DNA of 36,789 nt from Pseudomonadota bacterium. GTDB lineage: Bacteria; Pseudomonadota; Gammaproteobacteria; Xanthomonadales; Rhodanobacteraceae. Position numbers and translations under genes: made by a program. The stretch's first letter is position 1; each line of letters begins with the position of its first letter. Of this stretch, positions 11,254 through 26,581 are shown in pieces. The stretch lies in contig JAJXWU010000039.1 of NCBI GenBank assembly GCA_021781425.1, forward strand, positions 1 through 36,789, read 5' to 3'. The notes below the pieces were generated by a model. That model did not search any database. It was not told where the DNA came from and worked only from the letters and a program-made list of their open reading frames with translations.

Positions 11254-12123
11254 TTACTCCGCGGCGGCTTCGCCTTCGGCCTTCTTCGGCGCGGGTTTGC
11301 GCGGAGCGGCTTTCTTGGCTGCCGGCTTGCGCGGCGCCGGCTTGCGGCGGTCGTCGCGTTCGCGTGCCGGCTTGGCCACCGGATTGCCGTCGGCGTCGAG
11401 TTCGACGAACTCATCCTTGGCCGTGGCGGCGGTGATCGGTGCGGCAGCCTTGCCCTCAAGCACGGAGTCGGCGATCGCGCGCGTGTACAGCTGCACCGCG
11501 CGGATGGCGTCGTCGTTGCCGGGAATGGCGTAATCGACCAGGCTCGGGTCGTAATTCGTATCGACCACGGCGACCACGGGAATGCCGAGCTTCTTGGCTT
11601 CCTTCACGGCGATGTCCTCGTGACCGATGTCGATCACGAACAGCGCATCCGGCAGCGCGGCCATTTCCTTGATGCCGCCGAGGGACTTGTCCAGTTTCTC
11701 CTTTTCGCGCAGCAGGCCCATGACTTCGTGCTTGACCAGCTTCTCGAAGCTGCCGTCGCCGGCCATCGCCTCGATTTCCTTCAGGCGCGAAACCGACTGC
11801 TTGACCGTGCGGAAATTGGTAAGCATGCCGCCGAGCCAGCGCTGGCTGACATAGGGCATGCCGCAGCGTACGGCCTCATCCTTGATCGCGTCGCGCGCCG
11901 AGCGCTTGGTACCGACGAACAGGACAGTGCCGCGTTTCTGCGCCAGGCCCGACACAAAGTTGGTCGCGTCGGTGAACAGCGGCAGGGTCTTTTCCAGATT
12001 GATGATGTGGATTTTGCCGCGAGCGCCGAAAATATACGGCGCCATGCGCGGATTCCAGTAACGCGTTTGATGGCCGAAATGCACGCCGGCTTCCAGCATC
12101 TGGCGCATGGTGACTTGGGGCAT
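11254..12123 (-). CDS. rpsB: 30S ribosomal protein S2 with extended K/A/P/R-rich C-terminal tail
   Basis: [49 protein letters not shown]...; tail ...[30 protein letters not shown]. Confidence 0.98.
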
Positions 12124-12298
12124 GGGTAAACTCCAATAAGGGCGAAGCCGCGATCCATGGTCGCGACGAGCCCGGGGTTAGAACCTCCACGTCCCCAACT
12201 TTGTCGACCTCGTGTCCAGGCGGCGTAGCGCCTGTGCGAAGCACCCCGGCAAAGGTATCGAGACGTGTGCGGATTGTTCCCGAAATGGGAACTGCGGA

Positions 12299-24266: not shown

Positions 24267-25385
24267 TCAGCGTGGTGCGTGGTAGCCGCCCGGTACGCCG
24301 CGCGGGCTGAGCACGAGTTGCCAGAGCTGGTTGCGGCGCGCGCGGAACACGGCGGCGGAGGCGGAAAGATAAAAGCGCCACATGCGGCGGAAACGTTCGT
24401 CGTAACGATCTTGCAAACGCGGCCACGCAGCATCGAAGTTCGTGCGCCAGGCCATCAGGGTGCGGTCGTAGTCGGCGCCGAAGTTGTGCCAGTCCTCGAT
24501 GACGAACAGGTGTTCGCCCGCGACGGCAATCTGTTCGGCCGAGGGCAACATGGAGTTGGGAAAAATATACTTCGCGATCCAGGGGTCGGTGCGGTTTGAG
24601 GACACGTTGCTGCCGATGCAGTGCAGCAGCGCCAGACCGTCGTCGGCAAGACAACGGTGCTTGACTTCGAAATAGGCGCGGTAGTTCTTCAGCCCGACAT
24701 GCTCGAACATGCCGATGGAAAAAATGCGATCGAATTTCTCGTCGAGCGCGCGGTAATCCTGCACGCGGATTTCGATGGGCAGGCCCTTGCACAGCGCACG
24801 CGCGAACTCGGCCTGTTCGTGCGATACGGTAACGCCCACTCCCGACACGCCGTAGCGCTCGGCGGCGAATTTCAGTGCCTCGCCCCAGCCACAGCCGATG
24901 TCGAGTACACGCATGCCCGGTTGCAGCATGAGCTTGCGGCAGACCAGGTCGAGCTTGGCTTCCTGTGCGGCGTCGAGGTCCGCGGCGTCTTTCCAGTAGC
25001 CGCAGGAATATACCAGGCGCTTGCCGAGCATGGCCTTGAACAGATCATTGCCGAGATCGTAATGGCGTTCGCCGATCACATACGCGCGGCGGCCGCGTTG
25101 CAGGTTGAGCAGGCTGGACTTGAACCACAACCAGACATCGTCGATGCCGTGAACTTGCTCATCCAGACGTGCGGCGAGCAGACGGAACAGGAAACCGTCT
25201 AGGTCGTCCGCATTCCACCAGCCGTCCATGTACGACTCGCCCAGGCCGAGCGAGCCATGCGCGATCACGCGATGGAAAAAATGCTCGTTGTGGATTTGCG
25301 GATCGCTGGCCTGCGGGCCGCCGATAGCCAGACCGGCTTGCGTGAGCAAACCTTCGATGCGGCGCTGAGCCGAGGAACCGCGCAT
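24267..25385 (-). CDS. cfa: Cyclopropane-fatty-acyl-phospholipid synthase
   Basis: ERHYDLGNDLFKAMLGKRLVYSCGYWKDAADLDAAQEAKLDLVCRKLMLQPGMRVLDIGCGWGEALKFAAERYGVSGVGVTVSHEQ. Confidence 0.96.
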   Translation of the reverse strand: MRGSSAQRRIEGLLTQAGLAIGGPQASDPQIHNEHFFHRVIAHGSLGLGESYMDGWWNADDLDGFLFRLLAARLDEQVHGIDDVWLWFKSSLLNLQRGRRAYVIGERHYDLGNDLFKAMLGKRLVYSCGYWKDAADLDAAQEAKLDLVCRKLMLQPGMRVLDIGCGWGEALKFAAERYGVSGVGVTVSHEQAEFARALCKGLPIEIRVQDYRALDEKFDRIFSIGMFEHVGLKNYRAYFEVKHRCLADDGLALLHCIGSNVSSNRTDPWIAKYIFPNSMLPSAEQIAVAGEHLFVIEDWHNFGADYDRTLMAWRTNFDAAWPRLQDRYDERFRRMWRFYLSASAAVFRARRNQLWQLVLSPRGVPGGYHAPR

Positions 25386-25418: not shown

Positions 25419-25745
25419 TCAGGTCTGCCCCGGTTCGATCTCGCCGAACTGCGCCGGCAGGCATGCGTAAAACAGGTGAACGTTCTGCGTATGCAGGGCG
25501 GCGATCAACGCGTCGGCTTCGGCCTCGCCGGCGATGAACTCGACCAGCACCGGCACGTCGCCGGCGAGTTCGAAGAAGTGCTGTTCGTGCAGACGCCCGT
25601 GACGGCCGAATCCGGCGATGGCGCGAAACGCCGAGCCGCCGTGGATGCCGCGAGCCTTGGCGAATTCCAGCAGCCATTCGTACATCAGCGTGCTGCCGTG
25701 CTTGCGGTTCTCGTAGGTGTAAAAACGCAGATGGATGCCTTGCAT
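25419..25745 (-). CDS. DUF190 family protein (fluoride-cassette partner)
   Basis: GIHLRFYTYENRKHGSTLMYEWLLEFAKARGIHGGSAFRAIAGFGRHGRLHEQHFFELAGDVPVLVEFIA is typical DUF190; directly downstream of crcB. Confidence 0.9.
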   Translation of the reverse strand: MQGIHLRFYTYENRKHGSTLMYEWLLEFAKARGIHGGSAFRAIAGFGRHGRLHEQHFFELAGDVPVLVEFIAGEAEADALIAALHTQNVHLFYACLPAQFGEIEPGQT

Positions 25746-25754
25746 GGGAGGCCC

Positions 25755-26141
25755 TCAGGCGCGGAAAAGGAAACGCATCAGAAAAATTCCCGCCAGCGTC
25801 ATCGCCAGCGAGCCGAACAGGTGCACGGAAATGGTCGCGACCGCCCAGGCATATTGCTGGCGCAGGAACAAGGTCACGGTTTCGGCGGAGAAAGTGGAGA
25901 ACGTGGTCAGACCGCCACAGAAGCCGGTGGTGACGAACAGGCGCAACTCCGGCGACAGGCTCTGGAATTGCCCGAAAATGCCGAGCGCGGCGCCGACGAT
26001 GAAGCCGCCGAGCAGATTGGCAGCGAGCGTGCCCAGCGGCAGAGTCGGCAGCAGCGGGTTGAACCAGATGCCGAACAGCCAGCGCAGCACCGCACCGGCG
26101 AAGGCGCCGATGCCGACGGAAAACACGGATATGAAGTTCAT
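25755..26141 (-). CDS. crcB: Fluoride-selective channel CrcB/FluC
   Basis: GAFAGAVLRWLFGIWFNP...LPLGTLAANLLGGFIVGAALGIFGQF...LRLFVTTGFCGGLTTFSTFSAETVTLF. Confidence 0.97.
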   Translation of the reverse strand: MNFISVFSVGIGAFAGAVLRWLFGIWFNPLLPTLPLGTLAANLLGGFIVGAALGIFGQFQSLSPELRLFVTTGFCGGLTTFSTFSAETVTLFLRQQYAWAVATISVHLFGSLAMTLAGIFLMRFLFRA

Positions 26142-26145
26142 AAAT

Positions 26146-26171
26146 CTCCCGGAGCGGATCGATTCCGGAAG
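26146..26171 (-). promoter_or_regulatory. Candidate SD-sequestering hairpin upstream of crcB
   Basis: Minus strand CUUCCGG (26171-26165) can pair with CCGGGAG (26152-26146, contains the SD) with one G-U; crcB ATG starts at 26141. Confidence 0.5.
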
Positions 26172-26248
26172 TTTGCGTTTGCGCGCGGAGAACGCCGCGA
26201 GAGTGGTTCGTGGCGACGCCTGCGGGCATCCGGTTTCCGGATACTCAA

Positions 26249-26295
26249 GCAGGCATCATCAGCCTTGCGGCGGTTAAAGGAGGAATGCCATCTCC
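26249..26295 (-). ncRNA. Fluoride riboswitch (crcB motif) aptamer
   Basis: Minus strand GGAGAUGGCAUUCCUCCUUUAACCGCCGCAAGGCUGAUGAUGCCUGC. P1 GGAG/CUCC, GCC-GCAA-GGC hairpin, pseudoknot GGCAU/AUGCC all present; conserved GAUGG and GGCUGAUG segments; located upstream of crcB. Confidence 0.93.
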
Positions 26296-26308
26296 CTGCG
26301 ACGGTGCC

Positions 26309-26339
26309 AGCATAGCGCGGCCGCCCGTGGTGATGTCAA
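26309..26339 (-). promoter_or_regulatory. Candidate sigma70 promoter driving the fluoride riboswitch
   Basis: Minus strand TTGACA (26339-26334) -N19- TATGCT (26314-26309), just upstream of the aptamer 5' end at 26295. Confidence 0.6.
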
Positions 26340-26344
26340 GCGCC

Positions 26345-26581
26345 TCAACCGGCACTGCCGGCGCCGAGCAGCGCCTTGAGCAGGGCCAGCACTTCTTCCT
26401 TGGTGCCCATCACCGAGATGTGATGTTCGCGCGGAATTCCAGCGCCGATGCTTACGGCGTAGCCCTGGCCGGCGTCGTTGCCGTCGTCGTCGAGGCGCGG
26501 ATAGGTTTCCACCTTGCCCACGTAGACGATGCTGTTGGCGTCGATGTAGCGCCCGTCGGGAAGTTTCAGCCAGCGTTGCAT
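26345..26581 (-). CDS. Small uncharacterised protein
   Basis: 78 aa, MQRWLKLPDGRYIDANSIVYVGKVETYPRLDDDGNDAGQGYAVSIGAGIPREHHISVMGTKEEVLALLKALLGAGSAG; sensible composition, same strand and close to upstream genes. Confidence 0.7.
   Translation of the reverse strand: MQRWLKLPDGRYIDANSIVYVGKVETYPRLDDDGNDAGQGYAVSIGAGIPREHHISVMGTKEEVLALLKALLGAGSAG

Follow-up and report, generated by a model that had tools for sequence, protein, structure and literature searches.

The closest described systems are the known fluoride riboswitches. Their aptamer, the crcB motif (Rfam RF01734; Weinberg 2010, PMC2864571), combines the stems P1 and P3, a pseudoknot and a conserved core, and lies in crcB leaders. In the transcriptional fluoride riboswitches of Bacillus cereus crcB and Thermotoga petrophila (PMC13273304, PMC11077080), the stem P4 competes with the 3' strand of the pseudoknot. 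Models of the complete riboswitch built on covariation describe such a stem, overlapping the pseudoknot, as the apo stem P4 of the class, and the poly-U in those models reduces to five pyrimidines once every variant is taken in (PMC13273304). Fluoride riboswitches of the translational type are known from Pseudomonas syringae and Burkholderia pseudomallei, as cited in PMC13273304; as far as that citation goes, they share with the leader described here a proteobacterial origin and the absence of an intrinsic terminator at P4. Furthermore, the fluoride-resistance operons reviewed in PMC11139923 have a CrcB/Fluc exporter under a fluoride riboswitch.

The window, by which we mean the whole stretch of 36,789 nucleotides that was analysed, carries a leader with these shared features on its minus strand. 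It is very probable that this leader is a crcB-class fluoride riboswitch (RF01734) that switches a crcB-DUF190-cfa operon on, an estimate that covers the class, the direction and the operon and not the output step. The riboswitch itself is of a known kind, one of many, and ordinary. The most notable part is the link to cfa, which lies outside the coordinates covered by the preliminary description of this DNA.

The aptamer, its promoter and the competing helix

The features of the upstream part of the leader are as follows.

26309..26339, minus strand: promoter, read directly, with TTGACA (26339-26334), a 19-nt spacer and TATGCT (26314-26309)
26243..26304, minus strand: fluoride riboswitch aptamer (P1, P3, pseudoknot), Rfam RF01734
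26295-26292 with 26282-26279, minus strand: P1, GGAG with CUCC, read directly
26252..26289, minus strand: pseudoknot, GGCAUU (26289-26284) with GAUGCC (26257-26252), read directly
26271-26269 with 26264-26262, minus strand: P3, GCC with GGC, read directly
26212..26260, minus strand: P4, the anti-aptamer helix, with 26257-26249 and 26223-26215 as its core and, in the consensus, 26260-26249 paired with 26223-26212
26228..26242, minus strand: inner hairpin AUCCGG-AAA-CCGGAU within P4; its cells are 94% paired, and two pairs are changed on both sides

The preliminary description had placed a fluoride riboswitch upstream of crcB and had suggested a search with the Rfam covariance model. That search bore it out: RF01734 matched 26304-26243 on the minus strand over its full length (model 1-64 of 64) with 54.7 bits (E 1.2e-12), well above the gathering score of 34, and a CrcB/Fluc gene follows. 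The match is the best RNA match within the window and the only fluoride riboswitch match in the source genome. Promoter and aptamer occupy the minus strand between the stop of an upstream open reading frame, near 26345, and the crcB start codon at 26141, which lies about 100 nt beyond the aptamer match on the same strand, as befits the leader of a fluoride-resistance gene. A chance resemblance or a decayed remnant is extremely improbable, given the E value, the full-length match, the adjoining crcB and the retention of the aptamer in relatives; we found no point in favour of such a reading.

P1, P3 and the pseudoknot were read at the positions originally proposed. The pseudoknot, first drawn as GGCAU (26289-26285) with AUGCC (26256-26252), joins the P1 loop to the 3' strand in the manner of the class, and a sixth pair is added by the wobble U26284-G26257; in the B. 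cereus riboswitch, the wobble position at the top of the pseudoknot is reported to matter for switching (PMC11077080). Similarly, the proposed TTGACA-N19-TATGCT promoter lies just upstream, and the layout TTGAC(A/G)-N19-TA..(A/C)T lines up in the majority of the genus relatives. The promoter is missing from the output of the automatic promoter scan because that scan accepts only spacers of 16-18 nt, a range that excludes the 19 nt found here.

The aptamers of the relatives were located by Rfam matches, as a regular expression for the aptamer proved too strict and missed real copies. An extra variable hairpin sits between P1 and P3 in the genus relatives L008, L010, L011, L013, L016, L017, L031 and L059 (in L010, for example, CGCCC-TTT-GGGCG); the window aptamer has no such hairpin.

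The competing helix was found as it had been drawn, with GAUGCCUGC (26257-26249) pairing with GCAGGCGUC (26223-26215) over 9 bp, one of them G-U, around the hairpin read at 26242-26228. All 10 genus leaders retain it, with 98.9% of cells paired, and RNAalifold recovers it unprompted, adding GGC/GCC, so that the 3' strand of P3 is included as well. In the family as a whole, the partner strand co-varies with the aptamer end (CCUGC/GCAGG; CCUAC/GUAGG in L045 and L052), and further versions, CCUGAC/GUCAGG in L088 and CCUGGCC/GGCCAGG in L089, are likewise compensatory. A helix of nine pairs to the pseudoknot strand was reached by 51 of 2000 shuffled leaders and is only mildly unusual, while its pairing energy was matched by 1 of 200 shuffles; the case for a genuine P4 rests on conservation.

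Consistent with the proposal that pseudoknot and anti-aptamer helix are mutually exclusive, P4, which has a mean pair probability of 0.76 in the unconstrained consensus ensemble of the genus leaders, vanishes from that ensemble once the aptamer strands are reserved. Its conservation in the genus and its versions throughout the family are those of an apo-state stem that overlaps the 3' strand of the pseudoknot, as in the class. The folding model of the window, which omits pseudoknot and ligand energy, favours P4 by about 13 kcal/mol, and switching must therefore be kinetic or rest on the omitted energies.

The leader downstream of P4 and the output step

Between P4 and the crcB start codon, four further features bear on how the switch may be read out.

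26182..26226, minus strand: candidate ON-state helix, freed strand 26226-26219 with 26189-26182, excludes P4
26193..26215, minus strand: hairpin, CGCCACGA (26215-26208) with UCGCGGCG (26200-26193), 91.4% of cells paired, three pairs changed on both sides
26167..26216, minus strand: C-rich, G-poor leader segment, possible Rho-loading region, C/G 2.2, top 0.36% of 50-nt windows
26146..26171, minus strand: SD-sequestering helix, CUUCCGGA (26171-26164) with UCCGGGAG (26153-26146), paired in 87.5% of cells across the genus

The candidate ON-state helix is seen only when the ensemble keeps the pseudoknot strands for the aptamer (mean p 0.37; support 6/10), and 91% of its cells are paired in the genus leaders. 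This helix, the SD helix, the inner hairpin and the hairpin at 26215-26193 make up an alternative structure with six pairs changed on both sides, against 1.5 in shuffles (0/500); these are small counts from ten related sequences, so the covariation serves as support, not as proof. Two other pairings were considered and are not claimed. One, a long pairing between the 5' strand of P1 and 26206-26193, belongs to the minimum-energy fold of the window and, by eye, is kept in some relatives only; the other, between the freed C-rich strand and the SD, is short and variable.

How might such a leader work? The aptamer, the promoter, P4 and the genes can be read from the sequence and its comparison with relatives; fluoride binding and the direction of control we infer by analogy with the class, and the ON-state helix, the output step and a single transcript for crcB, DUF190 and cfa are inferred as well. 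Transcription would start just upstream of P1. Fluoride and Mg2+ would bind the nascent aptamer, the pseudoknot would hold 26257-26252 and block P4, and the freed strand 26226-26219 would then pair with 26189-26182. On the other hand, in the absence of fluoride, P4 (26260-26249 with 26223-26212) would displace the pseudoknot, and the operon would be off.

The output step is not the usual intrinsic terminator at P4. As the preliminary description had noted, no U-tract follows the stem: the tail GCCACGAACCAC has no T in its first 8 nt, the genus relatives have at most 2 T there, and a terminator scan found none in the leader. The missing U-tract makes an intrinsic terminator unlikely. Could P4 and its inner hairpin nevertheless halt RNA polymerase without a U-tract? 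The two are very stable together, and in related genera P4 is followed by T-runs (TTTTT in L019 of genus g2, TTTT within a six-T run in L014 of g4, and a further case in L044 of g40), so the stem can terminate; however, the T-poor tails of the window and the genus and the lack of a detected terminator make such an unconventional terminator very unlikely here. Because the same P4 stem carries a T-rich tail elsewhere in the family, the type of platform appears to vary, and terminator-type and terminator-less platforms seem to coexist within one family.

A translational platform had been preferred in the preliminary description, with CUUCCGG (26171-26165) and CCGGGAG (26152-26146) closing the crcB SD without fluoride and fluoride opening it. 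The two strands were indeed read at these positions, the helix is conserved in 9 of 10 genus leaders as aligned, and the absence of a U-tract and the translational fluoride riboswitches cited in PMC13273304 for P. syringae and B. pseudomallei also speak for this reading. The SD of the window is buried in the apo state, as expected of a translational switch, with an unpaired probability of 0.00 in the unconstrained ensemble. However, it is also 0.00 with the pseudoknot strands reserved, in a secondary-structure model without tertiary energy or kinetics. Similarly, SD accessibility in the genus relatives is nearly the same in both states by ensemble calculation, and the mean probability of the SD helix in the consensus ensemble goes from 0.58 to 0.49 when the aptamer is reserved. 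Release of the SD on reserving the pseudoknot strands was thus sought in the equilibrium ensembles of the window and the genus relatives and was not seen, which means that nothing ties the aptamer to the SD in the equilibrium model. Furthermore, the suggested covariation check, which returned compensatory versions of P4, gave a conserved SD helix in which, for the alignment used, no pair had compensatory changes on both sides. The earlier interpretation therefore stands for the class, the promoter, the exclusive helices and the missing U-tract, and it finds no support where it makes the SD helix the translational platform. Translational control could still operate, since co-transcriptional folding, ribosome competition and pseudoknot energies lie outside the ensemble model; we regard the SD-opening scheme as tenable but somewhat doubtful.

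A different output would arise if Rho were involved. Without fluoride, P4 would form and the C-rich segment 26216-26167 would be freed for Rho; with fluoride, the helix 26226-26219/26189-26182 and the hairpin it encloses would cover the segment. Its C/G ratio is in the top 0.36% as ranked against 50-nt windows on both strands of the 36.8-kb window only, and the best 50-nt C/G of the genus leaders is 1.5-2.5 in all but one, with a C-rich segment in most. The alternative helix is conserved, and a Rho gene is present. On the other hand, C/G bias has weak predictive power, most other genera show less of it, and the hairpin at 26215-26193, which lies within the segment, is predicted in both states. 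We consider this form of attenuation possible, if rather unlikely; even so, the second switch helix, the C-rich, G-poor leader and the Rho gene together make Rho-linked control, as modelled, a serious rival.

Taken as a choice of outputs, translational control of crcB, whether or not Rho acts afterwards, has about even prospects, the larger part of them through the SD helix as first drawn; direct Rho-dependent attenuation in the leader is a tentative second candidate, and RNA decay or another output is improbable. The leader might act as a three-strand switch via Rho and not through an intrinsic terminator. The genus relatives separate an aptamer-coupled P4 from a conserved SD helix without visible coupling, a warning that a drawable SD hairpin is insufficient for calling a platform translational.

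The probable crcB-DUF190-cfa operon and its distribution

Three genes follow the leader on the same strand.

25755..26141, minus strand: crcB, fluoride efflux channel CrcB/Fluc (Pfam PF02537, 98.1 bits; NCBIfam NF010792 and TIGR00494 above cut-off)
25419..25745, minus strand: DUF190 (COG1993) gene (Pfam PF02641, 73 bits), starting 9 nt after crcB
24267..25385, minus strand: cfa, cyclopropane-fatty-acyl-phospholipid synthase (NCBIfam equivalog NF008686, 591.8 bits, above its cut-off of 400), 33 nt after DUF190

The crcB gene, directly after the riboswitch, is the only one found in the genome, and DUF190 genes also occur behind fluoride riboswitches in relatives. The genome has two paralogues of cfa, only 36% and 31% identical to it. 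Within about 1.5 kb downstream, cfa was found on the same strand in 28 of 48 sampled riboswitch-crcB loci, representing 14 of 16 sampled genera; genus g40 mostly lacks it in the downstream stretch examined. Furthermore, at three loci in two further genera, cfa stands away from crcB and is preceded, at 150-215 nt, by a fluoride riboswitch of its own (L138, 4981-6314, 46.8 bits; L107, 15165-13804, 49.1 bits; L140, 11745-13072, 34.3 bits and at the cut-off). No cfa was found within about 1.5 kb of a fluoride riboswitch in other families of the bacterial class, so the link looks family-specific. Our literature search, which did not extend to the original gene-association list (Baker 2012), found no earlier report tying cfa to fluoride riboswitches, and a 2024 review of fluoride resistance contains neither the word cyclopropane nor DUF190 (PMC11139923).

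We lean slightly towards cfa being a true member of the fluoride regulon in Rhodanobacteraceae, a judgement that applies to the cfa part only. If this is true, fluoride would induce both export through CrcB and cyclopropanation of membrane lipids, perhaps against the entry of HF and acid. Both the operon and the loci where cfa has a riboswitch of its own suggest membrane cyclopropanation as a response to fluoride.

Riboswitch matches were present in 164 of 234 genomes of the family Rhodanobacteraceae, compared with 27 of 369 genomes drawn from the class. Some family genomes have 8-14 fluoride riboswitches, most of them gathered on one or two contigs over a span of tens of kilobases (L099-L108 in G108, G133, G022, G023 and G211), with the copies often in divergent pairs. 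Judged by reading the protein sequences and by BLAST to the window proteins, the genes downstream look like CLC antiporters, DUF190, hydrogenase/NuoH-like subunits, UspA, PilT-like ATPases and an MFS transporter. These clusters are candidate fluoride-resistance islands.

Elsewhere in the window, a t44 RNA (RF00127, 48.4 bits) lies at 12177-12289 on the minus strand, just upstream of the open reading frame 11254-12123 on the same strand, which reads as ribosomal protein S2 (rpsB). The usual place of t44 RNA is upstream of rpsB.

Comparison with known systems

Set against the RF01734 motif, to which it matches at full length (PMC2864571), the aptamer shows no difference; the linker from P1 to the AACC core is short (UUU) in the window, at the place where several congeners have the extra hairpin. 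Unlike the B. cereus and T. petrophila riboswitches (PMC13273304, PMC11077080), the window has no poly-U after P4, which is followed by a long C-rich leader, a second switch helix and the SD helix. Compared with the translational riboswitches of P. syringae and B. pseudomallei, as cited in PMC13273304 and likened here without base-by-base comparison, its equilibrium model has no link between aptamer and SD. Finally, in relation to the fluoride-resistance operons of PMC11139923, the operon of the window adds DUF190 and a cyclopropane-fatty-acid synthase.
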